Positions 4,506 through 12,166 of a stretch of 64,000 bases of DNA are shown here, piece after piece. The position numbers and the translations under genes are program-made. The notes beneath the pieces are model-generated. The model saw only the letters and a list, made by a program, of their open reading frames with translations. It had not been told where the DNA came from and did not search any database. Location of the stretch: the NCBI GenBank assembly GCA_023701135.1, contig JAMPXP010000016.1, positions 1 through 64,000 of the forward strand, given 5' to 3'. Every line of letters starts with the position of its first letter. Within the stretch, counting starts at the first letter, position 1. The DNA is from Desulfobacula sp. (GTDB lineage: Bacteria; Desulfobacterota; Desulfobacteria; Desulfobacterales; Desulfobacteraceae).

Positions 4506-6258
4506 TGATCAGTTTCCGAAGCGCCTCGATCTTTTTTTGAATTTGTTCCACAAGCTCCTTATCCTCTTCTCCCGCATTGGATAAGGCTTTTTTATAAACT
4601 TCAAGAGCATCTTTCGGCCGGTTGAGCTTTTGGTAGGCATCACCGAGGTGATCGGATATGATGGATTCAAATGAGGTCAGTTCGGCCGCTTTCTCAAGAT
4701 ATTCAACCGCTTTCTCATAGTCGCCCCGTTTATAATGGACCCACCCCAGGCTGTCCACGATATACCCGTCATCGGGTTTGAGATCATAGGCCTTTTGGAT
4801 CAGAGACAGGGCTTCATCCAGAAAGATGCCTTTGTCTGCATAGGAATACCCGAGATAATTCAAGGCCCCGGCATCTTCAGGATCAAGCTGAATGATTTTT
4901 TTCATGGTCAGGATGCTCTCCTCCTTGAGACCGGCCTTGTCCTGCACCGCGCCCAGTTTGAATAAAAGGGAGGTATGGTCCGGGGATTCCTGAAGGCCTT
5001 TGTTTAATACGTCAAAGGCTTTTTCAAATTGGCCCTCCTTTTCAAAAAATGAGGCCAGGTAGGTGATGATATCGATATCTTTCGGATAGGTGCGGACCTT
5101 TTCTTCAAGGAATTCAACAGCCGTCTGATCCTCCCCCATCTGTTTGTAAAGATAGGCGATCCGGATGATGGTTTTTTTATACTGGGGATGTTCGGGTTTG
5201 ACTTTTTTAAAGCGGCCGATGGCGGCTTTGAAATCCTCATTGGCCTCATGGGCCATGCCGGTGAAAAAATTCAGGGTGGAGCTTTCGGTGTCGGCCTTCA
5301 GCATTTCGGAAAAAATAAGGACGGCATCCTTGTATTTTTTTTTGGAAATATATTCTTCTACGGCCACCATGGCAGGCTTTGAGTTCCTCTCAACCTCGCT
5401 GCCAAGCCTTATGAAAATCTCTCTTGCATCGGCCGTCATTTTATTCTTGTAATAATGCAGGGCCATGCCGATTTGGGCCTGCTCATTTTCCGGATCAATC
5501 TCCAGGATTTCCTTATAATAATCCAGTATGGCTTGTTTGTTTTTTACCGGGCTTTCGATATTTAAAATCTCTATGAGTTGAAACCTTGCCTCAACAAGGT
5601 CCGGCTCGAGTTCAAGGGTTTTTAGAAACTGTGTTTTAGCGCTCTCATACTCTTTTTGCTGTAGATAGATTTCACCCAGATAATAAAAGGCGACATAATA
5701 GTCGGGAAATTGTTCAGTCATTTTTTCAAACAGGTGACGGGCTTTTGGGTAATTTTCCTTTTCAAGGTAGATTTTGCCAAGGCGAAGGAAAGCTTCTTTG
5801 TTTGCGGGGTCCAGGGAAAGGACTTTGTTCAGCTTTTCAAGCAGTTCCGTTTCATTAAAGGCGTCTTTTTTCAGCTCAATGAGAAGCATCAAGGCGTCTG
5901 GATTTTCAGGGTTTATCCGGATAAGTTTCTCAACCGAGGCCAAGGCCTTTTCCGTATCCTGGTGCCGAAGATAGAGGCCGACAAGGTCCCAGGTGATGAC
6001 AAAGGATTCCGGATCTAAAGCCAGGGCTTTTTCAAGGGAAATGACGGCCTTGTCAAAATCATTGTTTTTAAGATGAAGCCTTGATTCAAGATAATAATAA
6101 TTCGCCGATAAATTTTCCTCTTTTTCAAGCCCGCCGCCGGTCTGGGGCCCGGGTGGTTTCCGGTTCGGGCTTGACGGCACACAGCCGGTCAGATACAGGA
6201 TAAAAAGGAAGAGATAAAAAATATGGACAAGGATTTTTTTCATGATTTTCAGTCTCAT
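4498..6258 (-). CDS. TPR-repeat lipoprotein
   Basis: 586 residues with a lipoprotein signal (hydrophobic core, lipobox LTGC) followed almost entirely by tetratricopeptide repeats, seen as regularly spaced W/A-x-x-L-G-x-x-Y-x-x and A-x-x-x-P patterns from about residue 50 to 570. TPRs form a protein-binding superhelix, so this is probably an envelope scaffold. The first ATG (6258) has no clear ribosome site; the ATG five codons later (6243) gives a normal signal peptide and may be the true start. It sits 20 bases after the sigma-factor gene and overlaps the LolB-like gene, suggesting a shared envelope function. The partner cannot be told. Confidence 0.75.
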   Translation of the reverse strand: MRLKIMKKILVHIFYLFLFILYLTGCVPSSPNRKPPGPQTGGGLEKEENLSANYYYLESRLHLKNNDFDKAVISLEKALALDPESFVITWDLVGLYLRHQDTEKALASVEKLIRINPENPDALMLLIELKKDAFNETELLEKLNKVLSLDPANKEAFLRLGKIYLEKENYPKARHLFEKMTEQFPDYYVAFYYLGEIYLQQKEYESAKTQFLKTLELEPDLVEARFQLIEILNIESPVKNKQAILDYYKEILEIDPENEQAQIGMALHYYKNKMTADAREIFIRLGSEVERNSKPAMVAVEEYISKKKYKDAVLIFSEMLKADTESSTLNFFTGMAHEANEDFKAAIGRFKKVKPEHPQYKKTIIRIAYLYKQMGEDQTAVEFLEEKVRTYPKDIDIITYLASFFEKEGQFEKAFDVLNKGLQESPDHTSLLFKLGAVQDKAGLKEESILTMKKIIQLDPEDAGALNYLGYSYADKGIFLDEALSLIQKAYDLKPDDGYIVDSLGWVHYKRGDYEKAVEYLEKAAELTSFESIISDHLGDAYQKLNRPKDALEVYKKALSNAGEEDKELVEQIQKKIEALRKLINE

Positions 6259-6278
6259 TTTACGAATAGCAATGATGA

Positions 6279-7235
6279 TTACCGGCTGTGGTCATACATA
6301 TCAAAATCAGGCATGTCTTTTTTGAAAAAGGCCTTCATTTTTTTTAAAATATTGTTTTCAATCTGGCGAACCCTTTCCCTGGATATGGTGTATTCTTCTC
6401 CGATTTCCTGAAGTGTTTCAGGACTGTCTGAAAAAATACGCCGCTCGAAAATTTCCAGCTCTCTATCGTTCAGGCCTTTTTTAAATTCATCAACCTTGGT
6501 GCGAAGAATATCTTCGATTTCCTTTTTGGCCATCTGGTCCTCCGATGAATCCGATTCCAGATTGATAAATTCGATACGTTCCGTATTTGAATCGCTTTTC
6601 AAGGGCTCGTCAAGGCTCAAGTCCCAATTGTCAAGCCTCTGGTCCATATCAACCACTTCCTTGATGGATACCCCCAGCCGTTCCGATAATAATTTGGGTT
6701 TTGGATCAAAGCCCTGTTCTATCAATCTTCGTTTTTCTTTTTTCAGTCTGAAAAAGAGTTTCCGCTGTCCCTGGGTGGTTCCGATTTTCACCATGCGCCA
6801 GTTGTCCATGATGAATTTAAGGATATAGGCCTTTATCCAGAAGGAGGCATAATAGGAAAATTTGACGTTTTTATAGGGATTGAATTTTTTAACCGCCTGG
6901 ACAAGACCGATATTCCCCTCCTGGATCAGATCCAGAAGGTTCTGCATCCAGATTCTCTGGAATTCCAGGGCGATTTTTACGACAAGACGCAGATTGGAGG
7001 TCGTCATGATATAGGCGGCTTCCTGGTCCCCTTCCTCCTGGATCCGTTTCCCCAGCTCAAGTTCCTGCTCCCTTGTCAGGAGCTTATACCGGCTGATTTC
7101 ATTCAGATAGCTTTGAATGGGGTCTGATTTTACGAGGGCTTTTGAACTCGAAGTTTTTGCCTTATTTGCAGGGATGAGAAAATCTCCCTTGGTCAGTCGT
7201 GTATTATTCTGATTTTCCTGGTTGATATCATTCAC
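6279..7235 (-). CDS. rpoH: RNA polymerase sigma-32-like factor (RpoH type)
   Basis: A 318-residue group 3 sigma-70-family factor. Region 1.2/2 is visible as DPIQSYLNEI, LTREQELELGKRIQ and NLLDLIQEGNIGLVQAVKKF; region 2.4 as YASFWIKAYILKFIMDNWR. An RpoH-box-like QGQRKLFFRLKKEKRRL follows, the feature that separates heat-shock sigma-32 from housekeeping sigma factors. Region 4 ends with TLQEIGEEYTISRERVRQIE, the helix-turn-helix for the -35 element. RBS AAAGGTGA precedes the ATG. The role is most likely heat-shock or envelope stress; a different alternative sigma of the same class is possible. It heads the co-directional lipoprotein/Mrp cluster. Confidence 0.85.
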   Translation of the reverse strand: MNDINQENQNNTRLTKGDFLIPANKAKTSSSKALVKSDPIQSYLNEISRYKLLTREQELELGKRIQEEGDQEAAYIMTTSNLRLVVKIALEFQRIWMQNLLDLIQEGNIGLVQAVKKFNPYKNVKFSYYASFWIKAYILKFIMDNWRMVKIGTTQGQRKLFFRLKKEKRRLIEQGFDPKPKLLSERLGVSIKEVVDMDQRLDNWDLSLDEPLKSDSNTERIEFINLESDSSEDQMAKKEIEDILRTKVDEFKKGLNDRELEIFERRIFSDSPETLQEIGEEYTISRERVRQIENNILKKMKAFFKKDMPDFDMYDHSR

Positions 7236-7392
7236 CTTTATATAATACCTTTGAACTTTTTGATAAAAAAGAAGTATATCATTAACCTGATTGTGATTAA
7301 AGCAATATATTGAATCTCCTAAAAAATTTCCAATCTATTTTTCTATGGACAATTCATCCTAGATCTGGTAGAAAAGCTTCTTGTTTGTATCT

Positions 7393-7469
<77 letters not shown>

Positions 7470-7545
7470 CTGATATCAAGGGTTTTCAGCTTTTCGTTGA
7501 AAATCCTTTTTGTTTGTGCGCCGGAGGCCCCTGTTTTCGGGGGGA

Positions 7546-7944
7546 TTAAACAGGCCCCAAACGATAAAACCGGTTGGGGGTAACCGCCCCTGCCATCTCA
7601 TCCAGCCTGCCCTTAAGGGCTTTGATTTCATCAAACCCCTGGGTGCGCAGGTAAGCGTATCCCATGGCGGCTCGAAAACCGGTGAGACAAAAGGTGATGA
7701 TAAATTTGTCCCTCGGCACTTCTTTGATCCGGTCCGGCAGTTCACTTATGGGAATATGCAAGGCAAAGGGGAACAGCAGGTGATCATGTTCTTCCTTGGT
7801 CCTCAAATCAAGAAATACAAAATGATCATGGTTGACAAATTTAACAGCTTCCTCCACCGTAATCCCGTATTCACCCAATACCAGGAACTCAAGATCCATT
7901 TCGCGCAAAATTTCGGCAAAGGGTACCGGGTCTGAAATTTTCAT
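7546..7944 (-). CDS. Rhodanese-like domain protein
   Basis: A 132-residue single rhodanese domain, cytosolic, expected to carry sulfur as a persulfide on its catalytic Cys. The active-site loop FCLTGFRA puts the Cys at residue 86; the preceding [12 protein letters not shown] and the [12 protein letters not shown] element are typical of the family. The start is the ATG at 7944 because AAAGGAGA sits just before it; the upstream open frame to 8184 has no such signal. The loop differs from classic CRxGxR, so the substrate may not be thiosulfate. It is transcribed away from the transporter cassette; no operon partner. Confidence 0.85.
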
Positions 7945-8428: not shown

Positions 8429-10189
8429 ATGAATTCAGACACGTTAGCATCACCCCATGAACCTGATTATGTTGTTCTTGAAAGCGGTAAGACCAGACTC
8501 AAAGATCTTTACACCAAGGAAGACTGGATGGCCATCTGGATGGGATTTTTACTTCTTATCGTGGGACTGTTGATTTTTCTGCCCAATCCGCCGGCCAATC
8601 TGAAAGAGGATTTGGCCAAATACAATGCCGTCTTAAAGGAAGAGGCTGCCAAAGCGCCCTTTAAAACCATTGAATGGCATAACGCCTCCTCGGCCAAAAA
8701 GGGAATCAGGGCCACCAACCAGGATTTCGCCAAAACCATTGCCCAGTTCCTGGCCGCTCCCAGTGACTGGAAGGACAACCCCCTGGATGCGCTCTACCGG
8801 AGTAAGGCCAGTGCCGACGCCATGAACGCTGCGGCCAAACCTGCCTTTGACAAAGCCAAGGAAGCTGAAGGCATAGCCCAGGAACTGGCCAAAGCCGCCC
8901 AGGCAGCAGCGGCTGCCGCAGGCTTCAAGGATACCGCCTTAAACGAAGCGGCCGATAAGGAAATAAAGGCCTGGCAGGAGGCAAAAGGCAAGACATCCAA
9001 AGCCAAGGCCAAGGCATCGGTAAAATCCTTCAACCGGGTTCCCTACCTTATCGGGCTGTGCATTCTCCTGGGTGCCTTCTTCGGTTTGGGCAAAGCCATC
9101 ATGGGCCAGTCCTTCTGGAAATTCTTTGTTGGCTTTTTTGTTGTGTTTTTCATCGCCGTACTGGCCTATATGGCCGAAACCCAGGCCCTCATGAAATATT
9201 GGGGGTTTGGTTTTCCGCTGTGGGCCATCATCTTCGGTCTTTTGATCAGCAATACCATCGGCACCCCCAAATGGGTCCAGCCGGCTGTTGCCACTGAATT
9301 CTTCATCAAGACCGGTCTTGTTCTGCTGGGCGCTGAAATCCTCTTCAATAAAATCCTTGCCATAGGCAAACCCGGTATTTTCGTGGCCTGGATCTGCACT
9401 CCCATCACGCTGATTCTGACCTACTGGGTCGGCCAGAAAATAATCAAAATGCCGTCCAAAACCCTCAATATCACCATTTCAGCCGATATGTCGGTGTGCG
9501 GTGTTTCCGCTGCCATTGCCACAGCCGCAGCCTGCAAAGCAAAGAAAGAAGAACTGACTCTGGCCATAGGCCTTTCCATGGTGTTTACCGCCATCTGCAT
9601 GGTTGGCCAGCCGGCCATTGCCAAACTGCTGGGGCTGCCTGAAATCCTGGCCGGGGCGTGGATGGGTAGCACCATCGATTCCACGGGCGCTGTTGCAGCA
9701 GCCGGGGCGTTTTATGGAGAGAAGGCGCTTTATGTGGCCGCCACCATCAAAATGATCCAGAATGTGCTCATCGGCGTCACCGCCTTTGGCGTGGCCGTTT
9801 ACTGGTGCGCCAGGGTGGAATGCATAGAAGGACAGACCGTGAGCTGGTGGGAAATCTGGTATCGTTTTCCGAAATTTGTTGTCGGGTTCATTATCGCTTC
9901 CATTGTGTTCTCCATTCTGGATCAGAATATTGGCAAGGATATGAGCGCGATCATGATCGACCACGGCGTTTTGCGCGGGTTCACCCGCATCGCCAGGGAA
10001 TGGTTCTTTGCCCTGGCCTTTACTTCCATCGGCCTTGAAACCAATTTCAAGGAATTCAAACCTTATTTTAAAGGGGGTAAACCCATTACCCTATATGTGT
10101 TCGGCCAGAGCTTCCAGTTGGTTCTGACCCTGATCGTTGCCTATATCATGTTCTATATCGTATTTCCTGAAATCACGGCTGCCATCTGA
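8429..10189 (+). CDS. YeiH-family putative sulfate exporter with N-terminal extension
   Basis: A 586-residue inner-membrane transporter. The C-terminal two thirds match the YeiH/PSE family (putative sulfate exporters, usually about 350 residues): FPLWAIIFGLLISNTIG, VLLGAEILF, ADMSVCGVSAAIATAAA and GSTIDSTGAVAAAGA are family-like membrane segments. The N-terminal part is unusual: a short soluble tail (1-33), one membrane helix (about 34-53), then about 150 residues (54-204) of soluble Ala/Lys-rich helix before the transporter core. The start at 8429 follows AGGAGG; a longer frame lacks a site. In a sulfate reducer an anion transporter fits, but substrate and direction are inferred. Two small genes follow closely. 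Confidence 0.8.
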   Translation: MNSDTLASPHEPDYVVLESGKTRLKDLYTKEDWMAIWMGFLLLIVGLLIFLPNPPANLKEDLAKYNAVLKEEAAKAPFKTIEWHNASSAKKGIRATNQDFAKTIAQFLAAPSDWKDNPLDALYRSKASADAMNAAAKPAFDKAKEAEGIAQELAKAAQAAAAAAGFKDTALNEAADKEIKAWQEAKGKTSKAKAKASVKSFNRVPYLIGLCILLGAFFGLGKAIMGQSFWKFFVGFFVVFFIAVLAYMAETQALMKYWGFGFPLWAIIFGLLISNTIGTPKWVQPAVATEFFIKTGLVLLGAEILFNKILAIGKPGIFVAWICTPITLILTYWVGQKIIKMPSKTLNITISADMSVCGVSAAIATAAACKAKKEELTLAIGLSMVFTAICMVGQPAIAKLLGLPEILAGAWMGSTIDSTGAVAAAGAFYGEKALYVAATIKMIQNVLIGVTAFGVAVYWCARVECIEGQTVSWWEIWYRFPKFVVGFIIASIVFSILDQNIGKDMSAIMIDHGVLRGFTRIAREWFFALAFTSIGLETNFKEFKPYFKGGKPITLYVFGQSFQLVLTLIVAYIMFYIVFPEITAAI

Positions 10190-10192
10190 CCC

Positions 10193-10483
10193 ATGGATAT
10201 CAGAGAGATGACCCGTCCATACCCGGCCTGCCCGGAGATCATCCCGCAGGCCGGGCTTAGCCCCGGCTTGAAACTGATGATCGGAATCCTGTTGATCCTG
10301 ATCTTCATATTCGGGGTGGGCTCCCTGGCTCAATTGATCCCCGGGGCAAGTCACATGGCCCGGGTCATTGATGAACGCAATTTAAGGGCTACGGCCATTT
10401 ATTATACGGATTTTGAGGAACCGGCCGAAGGCTCGGAAAGCATCCGTGACAGCCTTGATTACAGGCCGAGTTTCAAACCGTGA
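10193..10483 (+). CDS. Small single-pass membrane protein, unrecognised
   Basis: 96 residues with one strong hydrophobic helix (LMIGILLILIFIFGVGSLAQ, about 29-48) between a Pro-rich start and an acidic, soluble tail. I do not recognise it. It begins 3 bases after the transporter stop and its own stop overlaps the next gene's start region, so it is clearly in the same operon. A second ATG 15 bases in (10208) is an alternative start. The arrangement suggests a small subunit or assembly partner of the extended YeiH-type transporter; this is inference from position only. Confidence 0.65.
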   Translation: MDIREMTRPYPACPEIIPQAGLSPGLKLMIGILLILIFIFGVGSLAQLIPGASHMARVIDERNLRATAIYYTDFEEPAEGSESIRDSLDYRPSFKP

Positions 10484-11064
10484 CACCCATGGACCTGAAG
10501 GAAAAAAGGGATATCATTCTCACGCAGGAGCTGGCCTTTGCCAACGAGATCGGCACAGCCTTGTTTGAAAAACCCAAGGTCAGTGTCTGGATGATTTTTA
10601 TCCCCATTCTTTTTTTGTATTTCATTTTTAGAATGCAAAAATTCAGGAACGACCGGATGAAATTCAGCACAGAATTTATGGCTGCCCGGCGTGAGGCCAT
10701 GGCCCTTGCTTATGATGCTTCAGCAGCCAAGGGCCCGGCAGGGAACGAGGGCGTGAAGCGGTCTGCAAAGCTGCCTGAGCCACTCCAGGAACCCTATGGT
10801 TTATGGATTAAAGCCCTTTCCTCCCTCTACCTGGACCTGCTTTCCGCAGATGGCAACGATTTCGACGCCCTGGTCCGTAGAGCCTACCGTACCCGCGCCG
10901 AATACCTGGATACCCTGGACAGGGTGAACCAGTTGGAAAAAGCATTTTATGCTGCTCTCAAACCGTTGATGAGCGAAGTCGAAGGAAGCGAAGCAATCAT
11001 CGCCAGCCTTGAATCCGAATCCTGGAGGTTGCGCAGGGCCACGGCGGATCGTATTTTCCGGTGA
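10480..11064 (+). CDS. Membrane-anchored helical protein, transporter companion
   Basis: About 194 residues. A soluble N-terminus (1-34) is followed by one membrane helix with an aromatic core (VWMIFIPILFLYFIFRM, about 36-52) and then a long charged helical region (55-194) with a Leu-rich central part and a conserved-looking basic end. It starts at GTG 10480, overlapping the preceding stop, or at ATG 10489; neither has a strong ribosome site, suggesting translational coupling. I have only a vague memory of a conserved unnamed family beside such transporters in sulfate reducers. Function unknown; probably a subunit or regulator of the transporter. Confidence 0.65.
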   Translation: MTPMDLKEKRDIILTQELAFANEIGTALFEKPKVSVWMIFIPILFLYFIFRMQKFRNDRMKFSTEFMAARREAMALAYDASAAKGPAGNEGVKRSAKLPEPLQEPYGLWIKALSSLYLDLLSADGNDFDALVRRAYRTRAEYLDTLDRVNQLEKAFYAALKPLMSEVEGSEAIIASLESESWRLRRATADRIFR

Positions 11065-11113: not shown

Positions 11114-12166
11114 ATGCCCCGGTGGATGAACAAAATCCTGGACAGGATCGGCAGCCCTGAGCTTGACTGGATTCAGGTCGAGGTCACCAGCCGGTGCAAT
11201 GCGGCCTGCATCTATTGCCCCCAGCCCTTCATCGGTCCAAAACAGCACATGCCTTTCGGGCTTTTTAAAAATCTTCTGCCCTATCTTGGGTATACAGACC
11301 TGGTATATCTCCAGGGCTGGGGAGAACCCCTTCTGAACCCGGATATTTTTTCCATGATCCGGGCCTGCAAGGCAAAGGGCAAACGCGTGGGCTTCACGAC
11401 CAACGGCATGTTGCTGACCAAAGAAACGATTTTTAAGCTTGTGGACCTTGAAACCGATATCATCAGCGTCAGTCTTGCCGGCACGACTCCGGCCACCCAT
11501 GACCGGATACGAAAGGGGACGGACCTGGTGAAGATAATTGAAAATGTCGGATATATTCAACAGATTAAAGCCCAAAAGAAAGCCCGGCATCCGGAGGTCC
11601 ATTTTTCTTATATCATGCTGGCTTCAAACCTCGATGAACTCCAGGCAACCGTTGGACTGGCCAAAGGGCTGGGGGTGGAGCAGATTGTCGGCAGCCATCT
11701 GACCTGGATTTTGAACGAGGGCCTCGGGCCGGAGGCGCTTTTTAACCTTGAGAAAGAGCATCAGGGGTTTTCCGGTATATTAGAGGCAACCGTTGCAGCG
11801 GCAAAAAAAGAAAATTTGATCTTTGCATTCAACATCCCGGCATTGCAGAAGCAGGAGGCCCAATGCACTGAAAACGTCTGCCGTTCATGTGTCGTCAGTG
11901 TCAACGGCCATGTCGGCCCCTGTGTGTTTACCTCGTCCACGCTGTCCCAGGAAAATGGTCAGCCCCTGGCTCATCTGTTCCAAAGCAGGCTTGAACCTTG
12001 TTACCCCCTGTCCTTTGGGAATATAGCCCATGAGAGCTTGACACATATCTGGGAAAAAAAAGCATACCATCAGTTTAGAGATTTGCATGATCCCGGGATG
12101 ACCATGCCAGGCAACCTTTCCCTCTTACCGCAGAGCTGCAGAAGCTGCTACAAACAAGAGGGGTAA
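11114..12166 (+). CDS. Radical SAM/SPASM-like protein
   Basis: 350 residues. The N-terminal radical SAM motif CNAACIYC (about residues 28-35) binds the SAM-cleaving 4Fe-4S cluster; GWGEPLLNPD follows as the GGE-like SAM-binding motif. The C-terminal part carries CTENVCRSCVVSVNGHVGPC and CRSCYKQ, a SPASM-type arrangement for auxiliary Fe-S clusters. SPASM proteins modify peptides or other substrates by radical chemistry; no precursor peptide is visible nearby. Start chosen at 11114 after CAGGAGAAAAGAG. It follows the transporter cassette by 49 bases and is probably in the same transcript. Substrate unknown. Confidence 0.8.
   Translation: MPRWMNKILDRIGSPELDWIQVEVTSRCNAACIYCPQPFIGPKQHMPFGLFKNLLPYLGYTDLVYLQGWGEPLLNPDIFSMIRACKAKGKRVGFTTNGMLLTKETIFKLVDLETDIISVSLAGTTPATHDRIRKGTDLVKIIENVGYIQQIKAQKKARHPEVHFSYIMLASNLDELQATVGLAKGLGVEQIVGSHLTWILNEGLGPEALFNLEKEHQGFSGILEATVAAAKKENLIFAFNIPALQKQEAQCTENVCRSCVVSVNGHVGPCVFTSSTLSQENGQPLAHLFQSRLEPCYPLSFGNIAHESLTHIWEKKAYHQFRDLHDPGMTMPGNLSLLPQSCRSCYKQEG

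Follow-up and report, generated by a model that had tools for sequence, protein, structure and literature searches.

Transporters of the putative sulfate exporter (PSE) family are already known. In the published PSE_2 form (11 helices; PF03601, TC 2.A.98), the core domain is accompanied by two extra N-terminal helices, and the topology is described as N-in (PMC8396727). In Salmonella, yeiH is reported as the main factor in sulfite stress resistance and is controlled by the sulfite-binding regulator YeiE (PMC12880088). A further system is the DVU0539-DVU0545 region of D. vulgaris, in which a PSE gene (DVU0543) lies beside a one-helix gene, with a kinase and a sigma-54-type regulator encoded divergently, and in which the operon includes universal stress proteins (PMC10102598, PMC3333781). 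The one-helix protein, DVU0544, has 133 aa, and under molybdate DVU0540 and DVU0542 were found to be important and DVU0539 to have no phenotype, while the rest of the cluster (by the wording of that text DVU0543, DVU0544 and DVU0545) was detrimental, its disruption being beneficial (PMC10102598). In a reporter assay, the DVU0542 promoter was driven by each of the regulators DVU0539 and DVU0946 (PMC3333781; see also PMC4641369). Small partners of transporters are known elsewhere: SbtA combines a CPA/AT-like core with a separate small partner, SbtB, which differs from the small protein described below in being PII-like. KdpF is a further example, a small transporter subunit with one helix.

Here we analyze a PSE locus of Desulfobacula sp. 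in a window of 64,000 nucleotides, by which we mean the whole stretch of DNA under study (Table 1). The transporter, present in one copy in the genome, shares with PSE_2 the core domain, the predicted fold and the two extra N-terminal helices; it adds a domain of ~150 residues and is followed by the small gene sm1, neither of which appears in the published description of PSE_2 (PMC8396727). We refer to PSE transporters with this domain as A-type. The core belongs to the same Pfam family as that of enterobacterial YeiH (PMC12880088), from which the A-type differs in its weaker match to the YeiH model and in its control, apparently by two-component proteins and sigma-54. The window also differs from the D. 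vulgaris operon in the universal stress proteins of the latter. Literature searches on YeiH, PSE and the DVU genes found no description of the domain-plus-sm1 unit, and a search combining the putative sulfate exporter family with sulfate-reducing found no papers; going by these searches, the unit is apparently undescribed.

Table 1. Features of the A-type locus and its neighbours in the window
Feature	Coordinates	Strand	Reading frame	Basis
A-type PSE (YeiH-like) transporter, core ~230-585	8429..10189	+	ATG start, stop ends at 10189, 586 aa	PF03601, CPA/AT-like fold (model), dN/dS
~150-residue helical domain, residues 50-208, between two extra N-terminal helices	8576..9052	+		Model, profile
sm1, one-helix protein, acidic C-terminal region with YYTDFEE stretch	10193..10483	+	96 aa	Locus conservation
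HY, one-helix protein of NCBIfam NF038143, optional neighbour	10480..11064	+	GTG start, 194 aa	180.7 bits, cut-off 50
Radical SAM/SPASM protein, loosely linked neighbour	11114..12166	+		PF04055 and PF13186
Divergent rhodanese-domain protein, upstream of transporter	7546..7944	-		PF00581, E 4.5e-8

The transporter and its helical domain

On profile evidence, the transporter is a member of the PSE family: PF03601 (Putative Sulfate Exporter) covers residues 235-545 at 152.7 bits (cut-off 24.5; E 1.4e-44). Membership of the YeiH subfamily was considered and rejected, as the NCBIfam YeiH model TIGR00698 (335 positions) matched residues 230-502 at 69.7 bits, below its curated cut-off of 232.6. Because the two matches begin at residues 235 and 230, the standard family does not cover the first ~200 residues. 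An AlphaFold model of the whole transporter, made with 13 sequences, had a mean pLDDT of 74.8, near 90 in the N-terminal domain and weaker in the core, and placed the extra helices at residues 31-50 and 204-224 with the helical domain between them (block means 85-94). These results bear out the earlier note, which had proposed a YeiH/PSE core with an Ala/Lys-rich helical N-terminal insertion absent from the standard family; over 77 homologous domains, Ala accounts for 22% and Lys for 13% of the residues.

Structural comparison of the modelled core points to a CPA/AT-like fold. By VIA-align the core aligned with NapA (Z 14.1, rmsd 4.0, 262 aligned), CitS (Z 13.5, rmsd 4.8, 291 aligned) and SbtA (Z 13.1, rmsd 4.1, 251 aligned), scores to be read with the caveat that the arrangement of helices is in itself enough to bring helical models to Z 13-14 and that the core model is of middling confidence. 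Nearly all of the proteins listed for the core were of the CPA/AT type. Foldseek alone gave no match to the transporter model at E <= 0.001. Conservation, expressed as median pairwise identity, was highest in the core (71%), followed by the domain (43%), and lowest in sm1 (25%).

PSE-like genes were found in 94 of the 247 genomes of a phylum sample. In a midpoint-rooted FastTree phylogeny of 69 cores the A-type sequences grouped together (local support 0.998), and their relatives carried either a different insert of ~105 residues or shorter stretches, of 21-24 residues in the nearest ones. A single old insert was rejected as an explanation: the ~150- and ~105-residue inserts sit on separate branches, each with relatives of 21-24 residues, which makes their independent gain likelier.

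The domain is uniform in length (155-161 residues across the 77 homologues) and, when modelled alone, gave five main helices at a mean pLDDT of 92.3. A domain profile (A2) matched 14 of the 247 genomes, once in each, and all 14 matches fell inside an A-type transporter; the same search found the domain in no other protein, and within this sample the insertion is not one shared with unrelated families. A fifteenth A-type genome (G218) has its A-type core cut by the end of the contig. As for known domains, the Pfam matches to ACDH_C and IcmS were weak, lay below the cut-offs and look like similarity between Ala-rich helices, so that the domain search suggested by the earlier note yielded no known domain. 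Nor did Foldseek match the domain to solved structures at E <= 0.001. The best VIA score was Z 6.6, and most rows fell on a helical hairpin (model residues 66-158) resembling those of AcrA/MexA and other proteins at Z about 6, an ordinary level for VIA; we do not claim a membrane-fusion role from this modelled likeness.

The two small genes

The two single-pass genes are tightly linked to the transporter gene, as the earlier note had stated: sm1 starts after a gap of 3 nt, HY overlaps the end of sm1 by 4 nt, and each product has a single strongly hydrophobic segment. By the NG86 method, dN/dS was 0.05 and 0.07 for the transporter, 0.31 and 0.16 for sm1 (window against L090 and L091) and 0.23, 0.28, 0.16 and 0.17 for HY (against L090, L091, L092 and L096), values that are rough because dS exceeded 1 in most pairs. 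The values of <=0.31 in the six comparisons of the small genes suggest that both encode proteins.

In the 80 named loci, which are the best 80 of 477 relatives, a profile search placed sm1 directly downstream of the transporter on the same strand in 80/80, its start (assigned by rule) falling between 19 nt ahead of and 210 nt beyond the transporter end. It was also present in all 13 A-type loci of the phylum sample, in two of them (L057 and L060) at E 0.03 alone, and in 19 of 20 fetched loci of family f48, presumably the Desulfovibrionaceae; as these three sets overlap, the counts are not additive. Beside other PSE types, sm1 was found in none of 40 loci (0/17 with the ~105-residue insert, 0/6 and 0/17 with a shorter or no insert), with chance matches at E above 4 only. 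Where two A-type genes stand in tandem (L202 and L203, both f48 loci), each has its own sm1. A search of the 247 genomes recovered sm1 in 14, beside A-type genes in 13 and in a genome without a PSE gene in one (G036), and missed the divergent sm1 of G195 and G240. From its presence in the A-type loci of the phylum sample and in all of the best 80 of 477, and its absence from other types, it follows that the domain and sm1 go together. Counted against this pairing are one f48 locus (L194) with the transporter and no sm1, and the sm1-like ORF of G036. On the strength of these loci, sm1 is a near-obligatory partner of the A-type transporter. The ORF of G036 (L170, 9680-9898), with no PSE gene nearby, is perhaps a relic.

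Profile searches placed sm1 in no known family. The window protein had no Pfam match at E <= 1, two homologues had none at E <= 0.01, and against NCBIfam the window protein gave just a tatA-like match (E 0.31) below the cut-off. Of the sm1 proteins from the best 80 of 477 relatives, 65 have a loose form of the YYTD motif. PSE genes of another branch are followed by a one-helix protein of a different kind, 57-58 aa long and with LFPTGH or FFPAGH at its end (L184, 2811-2984; L176, 3634-3810); in L176 its gene is flanked by the PSE gene and dsrA. Association with small proteins may recur within the PSE family.

By its score, HY is a member of NF038143. At the position where most aligned relatives have HYxxLL or HFxxLL, the window protein has LYLDLL, although its score as a whole is far above the cut-off; HYxxLL is a motif that we read from the short name of the family and is not a known membership rule. 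A literature search for NF038143/HYxxLL found no paper naming the family. Of the 247 genomes, 12 have HY, and each of these also has a PSE gene, which lay on the same contig within about 5 kb in 11; in the remaining one (G199) the two were on two short contigs. Of the best 80 of 477 relatives, 26 had HY in the locus (18 just downstream in the same orientation, 5 in the opposite orientation and 3 elsewhere), as did 1 of the 20 f48 loci. It also lies beside PSE genes without the insertion, where tandem HY genes or gene pieces were seen (L051, L052 and L056). Since HY accompanies such genes, it is tied to the PSE family and not to the A-type unit. These counts led us to reject three equal subunits. 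The co-occurrence of all three genes put forward by the earlier note thus holds for sm1, which is conserved beside the transporter, but not for HY, which is optional.

Of 77 domain homologues, 75 have a net positive charge, and the domain has means of 25.5 K/R and 17.6 D/E. Among the best 80 of 477 relatives, the part of sm1 ahead of its helix is positive in 67 and the part behind it negative in 72. The charges of the domain (median +7) and of the sm1 tail (median -4) were weakly and negatively correlated across loci (Spearman -0.34, n=76, nominal p 0.002, uncorrected for relatedness). Partial distance correlation with sm1 was equal for domain and core (0.42 each) and does not single out contact with the domain. 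The loop after the second extra helix is short and positive (mean 1.6 K/R vs 0.4 D/E), which together with the N-in topology published for PSE_2 (PMC8396727) would place the domain and the sm1 tail outside, so that the domain is probably extracytoplasmic. The K/R-rich domain and the non-positive N-terminal tail (means of 4.5 K/R and 4.8 D/E) are not what a plain positive-inside reading would lead one to expect of an outside domain, and the side of the membrane is therefore uncertain.

Hosts, neighbours and gene control

The gene for dissimilatory sulfite reductase, dsrA, scored over its family cut-off in 15/15 A-type genomes of the phylum sample vs 121/247 overall (uncorrected for relatedness) and in 23 of the 24 named hosts tested. 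The one host in which none was found (L169) is a MAG labelled Planctomycetota, in which the transporter frame (5929-7734) is split into three open stretches. Some of the best 80 of 477 relatives come from MAGs labelled Nitrospirae/Nitrospirota, Omnitrophota, Spirochaetes or Planctomycetota and, by label, the A-type is not limited to Desulfobacterota. The claim that the system is special to sulfate reducers is in keeping with the dsrA counts. A tblastn search with one dsrA, covering flanks of at most 6 kb around the A-type genes of the best 80 of 477 relatives, found none; in G195 and G240, which have the nearest one seen, the distance is about 30 kb. Genes of other PSE branches were seen by eye <7 kb from dsrA in 8 of the 94 PSE-bearing genomes (G177, G081, G125, G093, G222, G122, G030 and G229).

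The genes that flank these three in the window are less constant. A relative of the radical SAM/SPASM protein was present at E <= 1e-10 in 14/80 A-type loci (best 80 of 477), and the rhodanese had no phmmer match at that threshold among them. Of 15 loci viewed in which the PSE gene has the ~105-residue insert, 8 (L071, L072, L075, L076, L077, L080, L081 and L082) also had a radical SAM/SPASM relative nearby. The closest model for the window protein was that of a tungsten-cofactor oxidoreductase maturase, below its cut-off.

A cluster of two-component proteins was found in 42 of the best 80 of 477 loci, and a kinase with a CxxCH motif in 26; each of the three such kinases tested (L054, L143 and L050) has a Tll0287-like domain. 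Sites resembling the sigma-54 motif lay upstream in 21/79 loci, compared with a mean of 0.55 and a maximum of 3 in 200 shuffles, and were present in 13/26 loci with a CxxCH kinase vs 8/53 without. Judging from their surroundings, the genes of many relatives look to be under the control of sigma-54 together with an NtrC-type regulator and a c-haem-type sensor kinase. The window itself has no kinase-regulator pair beside the transporter gene and no exact sigma-54 site.

By analogy of arrangement, DVU0543 and DVU0544 of D. vulgaris are a candidate A-type/sm1 pair and provide a lead. One f48 locus (L205, 185-11738) resembles DVU0539-0545 in having an A-type gene with sm1 and two further PSE genes, divergent from a kinase-regulator pair, and two of its proteins look by eye like universal stress proteins, although a regular expression for such proteins flagged none in the 20 f48 loci.

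Possible functions of the transporter and sm1

We give about an even chance to the reading in which the transporter and sm1 form a two-subunit secondary transporter for a sulfur oxyanion in bacteria with dissimilatory sulfite reductase. Family and hosts make a sulfur-oxyanion carrier likely, and its substrate is most likely sulfite or sulfate. The PSE core would move the anion by an elevator motion, as its CPA/AT relatives do; the basic domain would lie outside the membrane, with sm1 oriented N-in and its acidic tail outside next to the domain; and the domain and tail would together collect the anion, gate its passage or sense it. HY would act at the inner face as an optional partner or regulator. 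We lean tentatively towards sulfite export or homeostasis over uptake. The fullest form of this proposal is that the A-type transporter and sm1 are an unrecognised obligate two-subunit elevator transporter, a sulfite/sulfate valve of many dissimilatory sulfite reducers, with a gate of a kind not known in the superfamily, made of the external lysine-rich domain and the acidic tail of sm1; this we consider unlikely as a whole.

The direction of transport is where the nearest rival departs. The same two-subunit transporter could import sulfate or a related oxyanion for respiration, with molybdate entering through it, a possibility that we consider rather unlikely. The advantage gained under molybdate when DVU0543-DVU0545 are disrupted (PMC10102598) agrees with uptake no less well than with export, with DVU0543 a candidate A-type only, and the dsrA association of A-type genomes is also in its favour. 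A survey of sulfate transporters in sulfate reducers contains none of the terms YeiH, DUF698 or PF03601 in its main text (PMC5840216), and because of this absence it does not count against the family as a sulfate importer. However, the best-studied relative protects Salmonella from sulfite (PMC12880088), and since the domain occurs in 14/247 genomes and dsrA in 121/247, the A-type is not a general uptake route.

Two further rivals were weighed. In the first, sm1 and HY have no role in transport and either serve stability or assembly or are membrane proteins of the operon unrelated to the transporter, and the insertion is a lineage-specific spacer; this seems quite unlikely to us. HY is indeed patchy and sometimes on the other strand, and sm1 is the least conserved part, with a loose form of its motif in 65 of the best 80 of 477. 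Against this, A-type genes that lack a downstream sm1 are rare, the loci of other PSE branches yielded no sm1, and each of two tandem A-type genes has an sm1 to itself. In the second, the protein is chiefly a sensor, either of external oxyanion or of redox state, that signals through sm1 and a neighbouring kinase, with transport secondary; this would account for the CxxCH kinases, with their Tll0287-like domains in the three tested, and for a domain placed between two membrane helices in the manner of sensor domains. Yet the transport core is the most conserved part, the kinases own a sensor domain themselves and the window has no kinase beside the gene, and we regard this reading as very improbable.

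The passage of sulfite and sulfate across the membranes of sulfate reducers is incompletely known. The A-type branch, confined in the phylum sample to dsrA-bearing genomes, and its near-obligatory small partner offer a concrete, testable candidate, and its relatives offer phenotypes on which to build, namely sulfite for Salmonella yeiH and molybdate for D. vulgaris. If true, a gate formed by an external lysine-rich domain and an acidic one-helix tail would be a feature not known for the superfamily. Together, the A-type transporter and sm1 suggest a previously unrecognised two-part transporter in sulfite/sulfate reducers.
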